Shown here: positions 13,024 through 53,881 of the stretch, one piece after another
Position numbering within the stretch: position 1 is the first letter of the stretch
Layout: every line of letters begins with the position of its first letter
From: an uncultured bacterium
Lineage (GTDB): Bacteria; Atribacterota; Atribacteria; Atribacterales; Caldatribacteriaceae
Reading direction: 5' to 3'
Length of the DNA stretch: 64,000 nucleotides
NCBI GenBank assembly: GCA_937139415.1
Contig: CAKZPS010000019.1
Span: forward strand, 1-64,000
Notes under the pieces: generated by a model
Databases searched by the model: none
What the model was told of the DNA's origin: nothing
What the model saw: only the letters and a program-made list of their open reading frames with translations
Made by a program: the position numbers and the translations under genes

Positions 13024-13044
13024 AAGGGGGAGATATTCCCCCTT
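13024..13044 (-). terminator. Hairpin after the hemerythrin gene
   Basis: A perfect 8-bp stem (AAGGGGGA / TCCCCCTT) with a GATAT loop touches the hemerythrin stop codon. On the minus strand it is followed by a mixed sequence rather than a U-tract, so it may be a weak terminator or a transcript-stabilising hairpin before the zinc-ribbon gene. Confidence 0.35.
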
Positions 13045-13448
13045 TATTTCATTTTTTCGCTGAGAAAGGCACCCAATTTTTTATCCACTTTGGTGATATG
13101 ATTGATCCACCAGTCGACAACGAATTTGTTGACTTGGGTTACCAAAGAGAGTCCAATGTTATTTTGTGCTTCTTGTTTGAGCTTCAAAAGACTTTGGGTG
13201 AATTCCCTGTGGAGATTTTGGTGTGCAGTAAATTCCGGATAGGCGTATTTTTGCATGAGGCTTTCTTCATAAGAGAAATGGGTATTGACGTAATCTTCGA
13301 GGAATGTGAGGGTTTTGCTCACCGCCTCTTTCCCTCTCCCTTGTTGACATGCTTCTAAGAGTTGGTTGGTGCGTTTGAAGAGTTCTTGGTGTTGTTTGTC
13401 GATTGCTTCTACTCCGATGGAGAAACTATTTGACCATACCATAGGCAT
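13044..13448 (-). CDS. Bacteriohemerythrin
   Basis: This 134-residue four-helix protein carries an oxygen-binding di-iron site. Motifs in order are the N-terminal W-S-N-SFSIGVEAIDKQHQELF (first His), the HFSYEESLMQKY segment (His and Glu), EFTAHQNLHREF (two His), and the C-terminal WWINHITKVDKKLG (His and Asp). It probably binds O2 for sensing, scavenging or delivery. ATG 13448 follows AGAGGTGATGAG. It lies 33 bases downstream of the HD-GYP gene and probably shares its riboswitch-controlled transcript, which links oxygen handling to cyclic dinucleotide signalling. Confidence 0.92.
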   Translation of the reverse strand: MPMVWSNSFSIGVEAIDKQHQELFKRTNQLLEACQQGRGKEAVSKTLTFLEDYVNTHFSYEESLMQKYAYPEFTAHQNLHREFTQSLLKLKQEAQNNIGLSLVTQVNKFVVDWWINHITKVDKKLGAFLSEKMK

Positions 13449-13481
13449 TCTCATCACCTCTTTCACAGGGTTTTTCTTGGC

Positions 13482-14804
13482 TTACAGAGAAAAAGTAGTG
13501 ACTCGATTCCGAAAGTGAGCATATTCCTCGCGCGTCTTCCTCTGCGCTTCCTTGAGCACATCGCAAAGGGTCGATAGATTGGCGAGAAAGATACCAACGA
13601 TATCACCGTCGAGATCGCGTGAAGCAACCATCTGTTCAAGCGTATTCTTTATTCCTTGATTGCTCATCGGCCCTCGATAGGGACGATCTTCGGCGAGCGC
13701 AGAGAAGACATCACTCGCTGCAAGGAGCCGAGCTTCAAAAGGGATTTCCTCTCCTTTCTTTTTGAAGGGGTATCCGCTCCCGTTGAGGTGCTCATGGTGG
13801 AGAGAAGCCCATTGGGCTAAAAAGTGACATCCCCGCATTTGAGAGAGGGCTTGGTACGTGTAATAGGGGTGACGTTTGACGATGTTCATTTCCTGAGGAG
13901 AGAGTGGCCCCGGTTTGTCTAAAATGGTGTTGGGAATCGCAATTTTTCCAAGGTCATGGAGAAGCCCAGTAGCAAAAAGAATTTGCTGCTCTTCTTCACT
14001 CAAACCGATTATTGCTCCCACATTTCGGGTGACTTCGGCAATACCCGTGGAATGAGTAGCAGTGAAGGGGCTGCGGAAGTCGATGAGATGGGTAAGTACC
14101 GAAGCGAAAAGGAGGAATTCTTCCGTATTGAGAGGGATTCCATGGAGGGAAGTGATTTCGCTCACGATCTCCCGTAAGAGAGGTGAGGCGAGATCGAACC
14201 AAACGTATTCTTTGGTGACCAATTCAAGGAGAGCCTCAAAAATATCCGGTGAGAAGAGCTGAGGCACGAACTGTTTCAGGAAAGAGACCCTTTCTTGAAT
14301 TTCTTGGAGAGGCTCGTTATGCACATTGAAGAGGATGCTCACCCGGTCAGCGAGGTACAGGATGTGGCTTTCCAAGGGAACGGCAAAGTCGCGGTATTGC
14401 TCGCCGGCACCGTGATTCCAGGGAAAATGGTGGAAGCGGATGATCGAGGCCACCGAGGAGAGGGGAGGAAACTTCTCAAAGAGGGTGTACCCCACAAAAG
14501 CATGGTAATGAGGGTTGAGGAAGTCGAAATCCAAGGCGCTGAGACGTTCTTCGAGGGAAAAAGCTCCGATATCGTGGAGGAATCCCGCAAGGAGAAGATT
14601 CTCTTTTTGCGTGGGTGACAGTCCCAGCATTTCCCCCAAACGGTAAGAGAGGTAGGCCACTTTCAGGTGGTGGTGGGAAAGTTTGGGGTTCACAATATCG
14701 GCAGTTTCGGAAAGAGCAAACACTACTTCCCACAGCGACACTTGGTAGTCCACGCAGTGCCGGTCATTCAACCCTCCCTGGGGTTGAGAGAATAATGATG
14801 ACAT
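13482..14804 (-). CDS. Tandem HD / HD-GYP domain protein (c-di-GMP phosphodiesterase-type)
   Basis: Two HD-fold units are visible in this 440-residue protein. The first (about residues 40-200) keeps HHH and FLHDIG but has no GYP loop. The second (about 255-400) is a full HD-GYP domain: HSTGIAEV, GLLHDLGKIAIPN, HHEHLNGSGYP, and ASDVFSALAEDRPYR. HD-GYP domains hydrolyse c-di-GMP; the Asn in HLNGSGYP replaces the more usual Asp. No membrane segment is seen. I place the start at ATG 14804. A GTG at 14870 would extend the frame, but it lies within the structured riboswitch element. Confidence 0.88.
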   Translation of the reverse strand: MSSLFSQPQGGLNDRHCVDYQVSLWEVVFALSETADIVNPKLSHHHLKVAYLSYRLGEMLGLSPTQKENLLLAGFLHDIGAFSLEERLSALDFDFLNPHYHAFVGYTLFEKFPPLSSVASIIRFHHFPWNHGAGEQYRDFAVPLESHILYLADRVSILFNVHNEPLQEIQERVSFLKQFVPQLFSPDIFEALLELVTKEYVWFDLASPLLREIVSEITSLHGIPLNTEEFLLFASVLTHLIDFRSPFTATHSTGIAEVTRNVGAIIGLSEEEQQILFATGLLHDLGKIAIPNTILDKPGPLSPQEMNIVKRHPYYTYQALSQMRGCHFLAQWASLHHEHLNGSGYPFKKKGEEIPFEARLLAASDVFSALAEDRPYRGPMSNQGIKNTLEQMVASRDLDGDIVGIFLANLSTLCDVLKEAQRKTREEYAHFRNRVTTFSL

Positions 14805-14831
14805 ACCTGCTATTCCCCCCAAGGGGATAGA

Positions 14832-14919
14832 GAAAGGGTCGAAAACTCCTTGTCCTGGTGCTTCGTACACTTTAGACCCTCGGCTTTGTGCCCTCTCCTT
14901 TCGGAGAGTTTACCCTTTC
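14832..14919 (-). promoter_or_regulatory. Cyclic di-GMP-I (GEMM)-like riboswitch
   Basis: Read on the minus strand, this 88-base element has the order expected for a GEMM-I aptamer. A terminal stem GAAAGGG/CCCTTTC encloses it. Next come AAA and a 6-bp hairpin CTCTCC-GAAA-GGAGAG with a GNRA tetraloop. Then follow CAAAGCC and a third stem with GGGTCTAAAG, whose internal TAAA resembles the tetraloop receptor, closed by CACCAGGAC. The conserved words AGGG(C/T)AAA, CAAAGCC and GG(T/C)CTAA match the known class. The 3' strand diverges from consensus, so the ligand could be a variant. Just downstream, TCCC and GGGGGA can pair near the HD-GYP start, giving a plausible expression switch. Confidence 0.7.
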
Positions 14920-14989
14920 GCCCCCATCTGTTATATTCCCGCATTAACCACGAATTGGTGTGGGTGTCCCAAGAAAGTGATACCTTCTC

Positions 14990-16172: not shown

Positions 16173-16967
16173 TTATTCGAGGATGCAAATTGATTGCGGC
16201 TCGTGAATGACCAAAGTTATGGTTTCAGAGACACTGAAAAGGAGGCCTTCTTCGTCCATGCCCAAGAAACCAAGACTCATGTCTTGTCCGAGAACGAGGC
16301 TGGCGTATGCCGCATTTGCTTCGAGGAGCACACCTTCTTTTTGCAAAATAGGTGCTTTGACGATCCGGTCTTGAACGATCTGTTGCAGGTGTTCTAATTC
16401 GGTACCTACCCCCGAGGGGTAACGGCGGAGGAGAAGATTGTACCGAGATGGTGCTAAAGCCAAAGTGTAGGGTCCATGAAATCCTGCTTCGTCTAAGAGG
16501 GTGACGGCATTGATGATGTCGAGACTGGCATTTCCCACCGTCTCCCAGGATTGGAGGGTGTAGCGGAGACTGTGCGGCGAGGTCAGTAATCCTGTTCTCT
16601 CGTCTTTCCCCTGAAAGACGAGGGTATCTTCTAAACGGCAACACTCGAGTACCGCTTCTTTGAGGGGGGCAGTATTCAACATGATACCTTCGCGCTCGAA
16701 TTGGGCCAAGTTAAGTTTATCGCAGTGGAAAGTTTTTTCAATCAGGGTGAGAGGAATACTCTGAACGGCACACATTCCCGAAGATGAGGTCACTCCCGCA
16801 GGAACCGAGACAAGACCTAATCCAAAGGGGCCTTGAAGGGGCAGAATCTTTCTTCCGGAGAGTTGAGCCTTGGCGATTTCTACGAGCGTTGCATCAAGAA
16901 AATCCCATACTTTTCTTCCAAAAGGAGCTCCTTCCCGTCCTAAATAAGGATTACTCACTCTTTTCAC
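16173..16967 (-). CDS. Encapsulin shell protein (family 1, Linocin M18-like)
   Basis: This 264-residue protein has the HK97 phage-capsid fold of encapsulins and should self-assemble into an icosahedral protein nanocompartment. Recognisable landmarks are the N-terminal helix region followed by LSGRKILPLQGPFGLGLVSV, the E-loop region, FEREGIMLNTAPLKEAVLECC, the SPHS turn, GPYTLALAPSRYNLLLRR with the following GTELEHLQQIV, and the C-terminal SLGFLGMDEEGLLFSVSETITLVI. The gene is 3 bases downstream of the cargo ferritin gene, which carries a loading peptide. ATG 16967 follows GGAGGTGAAAAG. The mature shell would store iron in the cytoplasm. Confidence 0.93.
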   Translation of the reverse strand: MKRVSNPYLGREGAPFGRKVWDFLDATLVEIAKAQLSGRKILPLQGPFGLGLVSVPAGVTSSSGMCAVQSIPLTLIEKTFHCDKLNLAQFEREGIMLNTAPLKEAVLECCRLEDTLVFQGKDERTGLLTSPHSLRYTLQSWETVGNASLDIINAVTLLDEAGFHGPYTLALAPSRYNLLLRRYPSGVGTELEHLQQIVQDRIVKAPILQKEGVLLEANAAYASLVLGQDMSLGFLGMDEEGLLFSVSETITLVIHEPQSICILE

Positions 16968-16970
16968 CTC

Positions 16971-17315
16971 CTATCGTAGCGAACCAATGGTTGGCTCTTC
17001 CGGTGGCTCAGGTTTGTCTTCGCCTTGTGCTAATTCATCGACTTCCTGCGCTCCTTGGGCAAGAAAACTTCGTTCATCTTCGGCAAGGATTTCGATCAAC
17101 CGCAAAAATTCTCCTACATGGACCTTTTCTTCGTTGGCAATATCGATGAGTACTTTCTTGGCCAGGGGATGGTCGGTAGCGTCGGCGTGGGCAAGATAAA
17201 GGTGCACCGCTTCCTCTTCAGCAGCAACGTTCAATCGCAGAGCACGGATGAGTTCTTCTTTGGTCATCTTCCGTGGGGGAATCATTCCTGAGAAAGGATG
17301 AACAAATTCAGGCAC
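16971..17315 (-). CDS. Encapsulated ferritin-like cargo protein (EncFtn)
   Basis: The 114-residue protein is a two-helix ferritin that needs to dimerise to form the di-iron ferroxidase site. Candidate ligands Glu33, Tyr40, Glu63 and His66 match the Rhodospirillum EncFtn set (E32, Y39, E62, H65) with a one-residue shift. The N-terminus MPEFVHPFSGM resembles Thermotoga encapsulin cargo. After an acidic, proline-rich linker (98-107), the C-terminal PTIGSLR matches the GSL(K/R) cargo-loading motif that docks inside the shell. GTG 17315 follows GAGGAGGTG. It is the first gene of a two-gene operon with encapsulin. Confidence 0.93.
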   Translation of the reverse strand: MPEFVHPFSGMIPPRKMTKEELIRALRLNVAAEEEAVHLYLAHADATDHPLAKKVLIDIANEEKVHVGEFLRLIEILAEDERSFLAQGAQEVDELAQGEDKPEPPEEPTIGSLR

Positions 17316-27452: not shown

Positions 27453-27479
27453 TAAAGTTTGCTCGATCGACGCCGATAT
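27453..27479 (+). promoter_or_regulatory. Sigma28 (FliA)-type promoter
   Basis: TAAA (27453-27456), exactly 15 bases, then GCCGATAT (27472-27479). The known flagellar sigma factor consensus is TAAA-N15-GCCGATAA, so only the last base differs. The next genes are a 46-residue ORF and a methyl-accepting chemotaxis protein, a typical target of this sigma factor. Confidence 0.8.
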
Positions 27480-27701: not shown

Positions 27702-29780
27702 ATGTTCAAAGGGGGACTGAGGAGAAAGTTAGTTCTCTTTTTCCTCATTTTTTCCTTGGGACCGCTCTTTTTCCTCTTTTTCTCTCTGTTTATCTCTTTT
27801 CAGAATCATCTTACCCAGGCTTATAACTCCCAACTTTTAAGCATTGCCAACACTGTAGCGAAATCGATCGATGCCTGGGGACAGCGAAAAGTGGACCAAG
27901 TTTCTGCAGGAAGAGATCCGAACGCCTTGCAGAGTTTCTACATCAATGACAAAGGAGAAGGTTCTGACAATACCGGTGCTAAGCTCAACTTGGGGGATGA
28001 CTCTTATTTTCGGCAAATGCTCGACACCGCTCGTCCTACCTTTTCTCATTTCTATCGGGATGGGAAGACAGGTAAGAAGGTAGTACGAATTTTTGTTCCC
28101 CAAATAGTCAATGAAAAACTGATTGGTTCATTAGGCATGGTAGTGTCGGTGGAAGATTTGGAACGTTTCATTACCTCGGTACGGGTAGGAGAAAAAGGAT
28201 TTGTTACCCTGGTTGATTCGCGAGGTTATTTTGCCATCCACCCCGATGAGGGGAAAGTATTGCAAGAAAGAGTGGAGGATAGGAGTGTTCTCCTCGGAGA
28301 AAAACTGAGGAAAGAAATGGAAGGATGGCATCACGAGAAACAGAGTGACGGTGAGTACCTCTTAGCTTTTTCGCAAGCTTCACTCTGTGGATGGCAGGTA
28401 GTGGCTGAAATTTCGGCACAGGAAGCCTATGCAGGACTCTCTCATTTGCGGCGTTTCATCCTGTGGGTCATCGTGGCGATTGGGGTAGGGGTTACCCTGC
28501 TTTCCCTGTGGATTTCGGGAATGATTTCTTTCGGTATCACTCGCATGACCCACGTGGTGAAAAAGGTTGCCGCAGGAGACCTACGCATCCGGCTTGCGGA
28601 GATGGAGGCGATGCGCAAGAATCTGAAAGATGAGGTTGGGGTATTGGCAGAGGTATTCATTCGGATGATCGACAATTTGCAGCGTTTGGTCGGTAAAATG
28701 GTTGACGTGGCTTCGCAATTGACCGCGGTAAGTACCGAGGTATCGCGATCGGTTGAGGAGATTGGTCAAGCCAACCGGGAAATCGCCCAAGCCGTGGCTC
28801 AAATTGCGGAAGGCTCAAACCATCAAAGTGATGATCTTCGTGAGGTGAGTGAGAGAGCGGAAGAAATGGCCCAGAAAGCAGAAGGAATGAATCAAAGTAC
28901 CCAGAAGAATATTGCTCGTTTGGAAGAAATGAAAACGAATTTGCAGAGGAATTCGGAGTCGCTTGCCGAAATTAAGAGAGCAATAGCGGTGGTGGAGAAA
29001 GAAGGAAGAGACACGGAGAAAGAGGCTCAAGGGGGTCAGGAGGTTTTGCAGCTTCTCATTCGCAATATTTCCTCGGTTTCCGAAGTGGCTGAGGAAGCTG
29101 GTCAAGCCATAGCCGCCCTCAACGAACGGTCACAGGAGATTGGAAAAATCGTCGATATCATTACCACCATTGCGGAACAGACCAATCTCCTTGCTTTGAA
29201 TGCCGCTATTGAAGCTGCACGGGCTGGAGAGGCAGGGAGAGGCTTTGCTGTGGTAGCAGAAGAGGTAAGGAAACTAGCCGAAAATTCGGCGCAGGCAGCA
29301 CAACAAATCTCGACTTTGATTGGGGAGATTCAGAAGGATACTACCCGGGCGGTGGAAAAGGTGAGGGAAGCACAAAAACGCGTTGGACGAGGAGTAGAAC
29401 AGAGTGAAGAAGCAGTTTTAGGGTTTACCCGCATTGTGCAGGCTATCGGTCGGGTTATGGAGAGTACCAAAGCGTTAGTATCGACATTTGAGATGGCCGA
29501 AAAAGCTCAGGAAATCACCGAGAGGGACGAAGATGAAATTATGGCGTTTTCCCTCGAGAATATGAAGCTCATTGAAGGAGTTTCGCAGAGCGTTCGTTTT
29601 GTTTCCGAAACGCTCTCTTCTATCGCCATGGTGGCAGGGGAAAATGCTGCTTCCAGCGAGGAGGTCTCGGCTTCGGTGGAAGAACTGAACGCTTCCTTGG
29701 AGGGTCTCAAAGAAACCACGAAAGTCCTCTCCGAGTGGGCAAAGAACTTGCACGATCTGGTCGGTCAATTTCAAGTGTAA
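27702..29780 (+). CDS. Methyl-accepting chemotaxis protein with dCache-like sensor
   Basis: This 692-residue receptor has a transmembrane helix (about 10-33), an extracytoplasmic sensor (about 36-245) with dCache-like pieces such as [11 protein letters not shown] and [17 protein letters not shown], a second helix (about 248-275), HAMP (to about 330) and a long coiled-coil signalling domain. The CheA/CheW-contact tip [19 protein letters not shown] lies near residue 495. It senses an unknown ligand and controls motility. ATG 27702 follows AAAGGAGGGAGGAG, and the sigma28 promoter is about 220 bases upstream. Confidence 0.95.
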
Positions 29781-52621: not shown

Positions 52622-53881
52622 ATGAAGAAAAAGGTGTCGAGTAGGAGCTTCCATGTCTATCTCGCAAGTGTCATCGCGGTGGGGGTAGCGATTTTTATAT
52701 ATTCATTGTGGCGGGTTCATTTTCCTTCACAGGGATTTATTTTGTTGACTTTTTCAGTACTGACTTTCATCGCTGAGCTGGTTCCGGTGTATCTTCCGGA
52801 TAAGGCTGCGGTATCGGTGAGTTTCGCCTTGGTGTATGCAAGTATCCTCCTGACCTCTCCTTTTGTAGCAGCCGTCGTAGCATTTGGTGCGATAACCTGT
52901 GCAACTTTGCAGGGGAAATGGCATGGAAGTCTCTTCAATGGCGCTCAATTTGCCATTTCTGCTTTTCTCTCGGGAATGGTTTTCAAGCTTCTCGGAGGGT
53001 ATACCTACGAGTTTATGTGGCATGATTACCATTTCTACGTGGCGATTGTGGGGTCTATTCTGGCGTTTTTCTTTTCCAATGCCTCTTTAGTAATGGGAGT
53101 GGTAGCTTTACAGAAGCGTATTCCCTTCCGATCCTTGTGGAGGAAGGACGTGAACGGTATTTTCATCCAGTATTTTGCCCTCTTTCCTCTATCGCTCTTA
53201 CTCTATTTTGTATACATTCAAGTTGGGTTTGTAGGAATGGTGCTCTTCTTTTTTCCTCTCATGGTAGCCCGTTACTCTTTTAAACTCTTCGCGGATACCA
53301 AAAAGATGCACATGGAACTTTTGCGAGCTCTCACTTCGGCGGTAGATGCCAAAGACCCTTATACTCAAGGTCATTCGGCGCGGGTTGCCTGGCTTGCGAC
53401 CGCCCTGGCCGAAAAAATCCGTCTGTCCGAGAAGCAAAGGGAAATTCTTGAATACGCAGCCATCCTCCACGATGTGGGAAAAATCGGAGTTGCCGATGCA
53501 ATTTTAGGGAAAAACGGTCGCTTGACGGAAGAAGAGTATCGGCTCATTCAGAATCACCCGGTTATCGGGCATCGCATTGTAGAGGGTATTGATTTTTTAG
53601 AGCGAGTTGCGGACATCATTTTGGCGCATCACGAACGATGTGATGGTCGGGGTTATCCCCACGGGAAGGAGGGTGAGCAAATCCCCTTAGAAGCCAAAAT
53701 TGTGGCGGTTGCCGATGTGTTTGATGCCCTTACTTCGGCACGACCGTACCGTCCGGCGTATACCGTCGAAGAGGCCTTGATGATTATGGAAAACGAAGAG
53801 AAGGGTCATTTCGATCCTCAAATTTTTGCTCTGCTCAAAGAAATCATCGCCGAAAAAGGATGGGAACCAAATGTTGGTTGA
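52622..53881 (+). CDS. Membrane-bound HD-GYP domain protein
   Basis: This 419-residue protein has an N-terminal membrane region of about six helices (residues 10-225), then a C-terminal HD-GYP domain (about 240-400). The domain has the canonical set HSARVAWLA, ILHDVGKIGVADAIL, HHERCDGRGYP and ADVFDALTSARPYR, so c-di-GMP hydrolysis is likely. The membrane part may sense a signal. ATG 52622 follows GGTGTAGGA. Its end overlaps the DUF5317-like gene by 11 bases. Confidence 0.9.
   Translation: MKKKVSSRSFHVYLASVIAVGVAIFIYSLWRVHFPSQGFILLTFSVLTFIAELVPVYLPDKAAVSVSFALVYASILLTSPFVAAVVAFGAITCATLQGKWHGSLFNGAQFAISAFLSGMVFKLLGGYTYEFMWHDYHFYVAIVGSILAFFFSNASLVMGVVALQKRIPFRSLWRKDVNGIFIQYFALFPLSLLLYFVYIQVGFVGMVLFFFPLMVARYSFKLFADTKKMHMELLRALTSAVDAKDPYTQGHSARVAWLATALAEKIRLSEKQREILEYAAILHDVGKIGVADAILGKNGRLTEEEYRLIQNHPVIGHRIVEGIDFLERVADIILAHHERCDGRGYPHGKEGEQIPLEAKIVAVADVFDALTSARPYRPAYTVEEALMIMENEEKGHFDPQIFALLKEIIAEKGWEPNVG

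Follow-up and report, generated by a model that had tools for sequence, protein, structure and literature searches.

In the c-di-GMP-I (GEMM-I) riboswitch class (RF01051), to which the Vc2 aptamer of V. cholerae belongs, G20 and A47-A48 are part of the ligand pocket (PMC3764141). In GEMM-Ib riboswitches, which recognize 3',3'-cGAMP, the ligand is set by A20, and the change A20G turns Gmet_0970 to c-di-GMP (PMC6456294). The C92U single mutant of Vc2 has been crystallized (3MUR; PMC9049102, PMC10671752), with 3UD3 and 3UD4 as further structures of it (PMC10671752), which shows that U at this position is compatible with folding; a passage in one review credits the same change with enabling 3',3'-cGAMP binding (PMC12032345, citing Shanahan 2011). 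V-cGAP3 (5z7c) and other HD-GYP phosphodiesterases combine an HD with an HD-GYP domain and carry HD, HHE and GYP motifs.

The stretch of DNA analysed here (the window; 64,000 nt from an uncultured Caldatribacteriaceae bacterium) holds, on its minus strand, an HD-GYP gene preceded by an element with the motif order of Vc2. Judging from alignments and covariance scores, the leader of this gene is a genuine, diverged descendant of the c-di-GMP-I riboswitches. We judge the element to be a c-di-GMP switch that has weakened, or else a relic; it may sense c-di-GMP weakly or something else.

A diverged GEMM-I aptamer homologue

An earlier note on this DNA had recognized the GEMM motif order on the minus strand, and GGGUAAAC, a GAAA-capped hairpin of six pairs, CAAAGCC and GGGUCUAAAG are all seen there. 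Comparison of the minus strand of 14804-14924 with Rfam gave a match to RF01051 at 14838-14924 (model positions 1-87, 44.5 bits, E = 1.9e-5), which exceeds the gathering score of 35 bits and bears out the GEMM-I homology that the note had proposed. The aptamer extends over about 14838-14924, in place of the 14804-14919 given in the note. This is the sole riboswitch that Rfam finds in the window; a second, weak match to the order-level model described below (52861-52964, 14.2 bits), antisense inside another HD-GYP gene, was taken as chance. RF01051 matches are present in 53 of the 101 genomes searched, including most from the same order and phylum. The genome studied (G000; 2.32 Mb in 76 contigs) has three, the remaining two at 78.8 and 77.7 bits. 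An order-level covariance model, built from 34 same-order aptamers with the present element left out, scores the element at 51.5 bits (E ~1e-10) and 20 held-out aptamers of the phylum at 70.8-84.5 bits, from which we conclude that it is a true member of the family by descent and a clear outlier within it. The features of the locus are collected in Table 1.

Table 1. Coordinates of the aptamer homologue, its parts and the genes downstream (positions in the window)
Feature	Position	Strand	Basis
GEMM-I (c-di-GMP-I) aptamer homologue, full Rfam span	14838..14924	-	RF01051 44.5 bits; family model 51.5 bits
Possible P1 5' strand GGGGCG	14919..14924	-	pairs with CGACCC 14836-14841, chance level
Well-conserved 5' part: J1/2 with G20 (14914), GAAA hairpin P2 (14893-14908), C46-A49 (14885-14888), receptor strand GUCUAAA	14871..14919	-	alignment; 1 of 37 sites differs from L001
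P3 upper part: GUC/GAC (14875-14877 with 14852-14854), GUGU/GCAC (14867-14870 with 14858-14861), tetraloop receptor	14852..14877	-	pairs kept; p = 0.027
Alternative GTG start within the aptamer, SD-like GAGGG at 14877-14881	14868..14870	-	less likely
Diverged 3' strand AAGGAGUUUUCGACCC: A for bulged G83, U91 (14843), U92 (14842), C93 (14841), possible P1 strand CGACCC	14836..14851	-	p = 0.22
Possible expression platform: hairpin CUAUCCCCUUGGGGGGAAUAG holding SD GGGGGG (14815-14820)	14810..14830	-	predicted, -8.4 kcal/mol; putative
HD + HD-GYP protein, likely start ATG 14804, 440 aa	13482..14804	-	Pfam HD_5 5.2e-38, HD 1.7e-30
Bacteriohemerythrin, second gene of conserved pair	13044..13466	-	NF033749 above cut-off; directly downstream in 4 of 5 HD-GYP orthologue loci

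Numbering follows V. cholerae and was carried over via the Rfam consensus, with a check against the pocket residues of 4YAZ, a cGAMP structure (PMC7288161), and the conserved positions (PMC3764141). By this numbering G20, A23, A25, the GAAA loop, C44, A47-A49, the CUAAAG receptor strand and the GUC/GAC and GUGU/GCAC pairs of P3 are unchanged, so that the element has in common with Vc2 its GAAA-capped P2 and receptor and its upper P3 stem. The pocket residues G20 and A47-A48 are among these (AAA at 14885-14887), as are the GNRA-capped P2 (CUCUCC-GAAA-GGAGAG) and the P3 tetraloop receptor (GUCUAAAG..CCAGGAC). The pair C22-G45 has become U22-A45, a compensated change.

The 3' side of the pocket is altered. 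Where Vc2 has a purine and C at 91-92 the element has U91-U92, and the bulged G83, the partner of C44, is A. Relatives close the base of P3 with a helix of AGCC-CGG opposite CCG-GGUU, which is gone here, AGCCGAGG not pairing with AAGGAGUU; also at variance with Vc2 are a P1 at chance level and the lack of a terminator. Among the 149 remaining aptamers read, every one but a single exception has C at position 92, the Watson-Crick partner of the ligand; further apparent exceptions in L029 and L194 are end effects of the match. The one other U92 belongs to L162 (G044:C218:6061-6152), a GEMM-I aptamer that is otherwise canonical and scores 73 bits. When the segments were scored in a simple way on the family columns, the terminal segment of P3 did better than shuffles at a marginal p = 0.027, and the last ~25 nt were at the level of shuffled sequence (p = 0.22); for the 3' strand the note's word 'atypical' is too mild. 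The possible P1 (GGGGCG/CGACCC) is equalled by 81% of shuffles and was discarded as support. A shifted register with ACC at 91-93, considered by eye, was also discarded because P1 and the base of P3 then fail.

The divergence is unevenly distributed. From its nearest paralogue, L001 of the same genome, the element differs at one of 37 sites in the 5' block (GAAAGGG to AAAGCC) and at 17 of 38 in the 3' block. The family means are 0.10 and 0.20, respectively, and the maxima for any pair among 18 members 0.22 and 0.37. Neutral decay would strike both blocks alike, and it therefore seems that the 5' part is still constrained or was recently acquired; a near-unchanged 5' block does not sit easily with neutral loss across the entire element. 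The U22-A45 pair (GGGUAAAC..GGGCACAAAG) is rare, being common only to L001, L065 and L073 among 34 aptamers, nearly all others having C-G, and this suggests that the element stems from the L001/L065/L073 type. The L001 type of the same genome family is the probable source from which it was copied, and it would then have come to serve as leader for the HD-GYP and bacteriohemerythrin genes adjoining serC. L001 itself differs from the element in its canonical 3' half, its sigma28-type promoter and its target, a lipoprotein gene whose homologues across the order share LDVPFLPQVPPGDW.

A possible weakened switch, or a relic, ahead of the HD-GYP gene

The Pfam matches uphold the earlier call of an HD-GYP gene downstream of the aptamer. 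With ATG 14804 as its start, the protein carries an HD domain at the N terminus and an HD-GYP domain at the C terminus, the layout of V-cGAP3 and other HD-GYP phosphodiesterases, and its motifs H283 D284 K287, H336 H337 E338 and G344 Y345 P346 are invariant across orthologues. It departs from those enzymes in having Asn for Asp in the DGxGYP motif, as do three of the five orthologues (L034-L036). A search of the genome contigs for relatives of the protein gave no useful relative. The nearest solved one is 5z7c, 3'3'-cGAMP-specific phosphodiesterase 3 (E 1.5e-36), a similarity that does not fix the substrate. The HD-GYP/bacteriohemerythrin pair is kept in L034, L035, L037 and L038, and serC was not seen in the fetched flanks of these four. 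No aptamer was found at the orthologous HD-GYP loci of the order, and behind no other aptamer read in the order is an HD-GYP gene the first open frame. Elsewhere in the window, a second HD-GYP gene (52622-53881, plus strand) encodes HDVGK and HHERCDGRGYP behind a membrane N-terminus, and 16173-17315 (minus strand) holds a Family 1 encapsulin and, with it, a ferritin-like cargo gene of the EncB family that has PTIGSLR as its tail.

We infer from the sequence that the element would be transcribed as the leader of the HD-GYP gene, and infer likewise its ligand, any residual binding and the direction and mechanism of control. Our leading reading, a tentative one, is that the element still works as a c-di-GMP riboswitch, in weakened form, at the level of translation. 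In such a switch, folding of the aptamer would compete with pairing of CGACCCUUUCUCUAUCCCC into other helices, the competition would change access to the SD GGGGGG ahead of ATG 14804, and the outcome would be feedback by c-di-GMP on an HD-GYP phosphodiesterase. CGACCCUUUCUCUAUCCCC, which lies downstream of the aptamer, has three possible partners, namely the 5' strand of P1, GAAAGGGU of the junction and the GAGGGUC in P3, and the SD could be paired by CCCC; as duplexes, these competing helices are only slightly stronger than expected by chance (p = 0.07-0.14). In the fold predicted without ligand, helices that disrupt the aptamer are favoured, the aptamer fold lying 2.8 kcal/mol above the optimum, within the range of its relatives. 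The scan found no terminator-like site, and this, together with the strong SD at 14804 and the predicted hairpin that holds it, points to translational control, so that a translational switch is possible.

Close to this reading in our estimate, and slightly behind it, is that the element is a relic: a GEMM-I aptamer that has lost its pocket and binds no ligand, the remaining 5' hairpin being merely part of the mRNA leader. A 3' strand at chance level, the loss of C92, of the purine at 91, of G83 and of the P3 base, the absence of both a sigma28 promoter and a terminator, and orthologous genes without an aptamer all speak for a relic. In addition, pairing of UUUU with the AAA of the junction could lengthen P1 (GGGGCGAAAG/UUUUCGACCC). 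Against it stands the contrast between a near-unchanged 5' block and a highly diverged 3' block, for which plain decay would need a recent acquisition of the 5' part. If functional, the weakened riboswitch would show a natural change of a ligand-gripping base in a c-di-GMP riboswitch that now controls an enzyme degrading cyclic dinucleotides; if non-functional, the element would be a riboswitch above the Rfam threshold with its pocket lost, and so a caution against annotation by score only.

Translation start and ligand

The asymmetry of the divergence could also have arisen if the 3' half had become coding, with translation starting at GTG 14870 inside the former aptamer, where a change of ACGG to GAGG would have created the SD and one of GCG to GUG the start. 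The GTG frame that the earlier note saw beginning inside the aptamer is real: it is the longest, at 462 aa, and is preceded at 6 nt by GAGGG, which resembles an SD (-6.4 kcal/mol). ATG 14804 has the strongest SD among the in-frame candidates (GGGGGG at 8 nt, -9.5 kcal/mol) and leaves 20-21 residues ahead of the conserved region; from 14870 there are 42, whereas orthologues appear to have ~19-35. Codon usage in 14805-14867 is no better than off-frame, although that of 14739-14801 is equally weak, so that codon statistics do not separate the two starts. By its SD and the length of its leader, ATG 14804 is thus more likely the start of the protein, as the note had preferred, at a strength short of its firm reassignment. 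We consider a start at GTG 14870 improbable, and give as little credence to the view that the 3'-half divergence reflects a new coding role.

The note had left room for a variant ligand such as cGAMP. The known route to cGAMP does not apply, since position 20 is G and not the GEMM-Ib determinant A20; with Geobacter GEMM-Ib the element shares the scaffold, differing in G20 and in the changed position 92. Nor does the genome (assembly 96% complete) point to cGAMP: all 14 GGDEF domains read have the c-di-GMP-type Asp (GHxxGD; a 15th match is partial), with no Hypr-type Ser at the selectivity site among them, and a search for a SMODS cyclase found none. The genome thus supports c-di-GMP as the ligand, and C92U is the sole route left to a variant one. 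A pocket with G20 and U92 might read one G and one A, and so sense 3',3'-cGAMP or linear pGpA/GpA by a route unlike that of GEMM-Ib, in control of an HD-GYP protein related to a cGAMP phosphodiesterase. Linear G-A dinucleotides are the ligands in 3UD3 and 3UD4. U92 is present, the Vc2 C92U mutant has the same combination with G20 in its structures (3MUR, 3UD3, 3UD4; PMC10671752), the review passage cited above reports that C92U permits cGAMP binding (PMC12032345), and the nearest solved relative of the protein is 5z7c. The mutant's 3' strand is otherwise intact, however, whereas that of the element is degenerate apart from U92; U92 is rare, the likeness to 5z7c leaves the substrate unfixed, and neither a Hypr-type GGDEF nor a SMODS cyclase was found. 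A variant ligand is therefore unlikely, and this is the least probable of the readings considered.

Seven aptamers do carry A20 (L016, L129, L134, L145 and L154, and also L147 and L197; families f5 and f7). Five of the seven are orthologous, the 3' strand of P1 holding the SD of a secreted protein of ~133 aa. Five genomes were searched for GGDEF domains, and none of those read has the Hypr Ser.

c-di-GMP-I riboswitches and sigma28-type promoters in the order

For the attack phase of Bdellovibrio, one study reports both FliA-type promoters and an abundant c-di-GMP riboswitch RNA, the RNA itself not being marked with a FliA promoter (PMC3627812). In the order studied here, the FliA/sigma28 form TAAAG-N15-[CT]CGAT occurs within 130 nt upstream of 25 of the 36 GEMM-I aptamers, the present element counted among the 36; the spacing is 15 in every case, and shuffles average 0.05. 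The 25 loci are L001, L004, L006, L007, L010, L014, L018 and 18 others. None of the 15 aptamers in families f5 and f7 has a promoter of this type, and none was found ahead of the present element; the 60 nt upstream of it do not significantly resemble the sigma28 promoter region of L001 (p = 0.13). A FliA homologue, above the NCBIfam cut-off, is encoded in the genome. These sequence patterns suggest that c-di-GMP riboswitches are coupled to the flagellar sigma factor throughout the lineage, and the position of most c-di-GMP-I riboswitches of the order behind flagellar sigma28-type promoters would tie them to motility. The window itself contains an exact promoter of this type, TAAAGTTT..CCGATA at 27453-27478 (plus strand), ~224 nt before a methyl-accepting chemotaxis gene at 27702.
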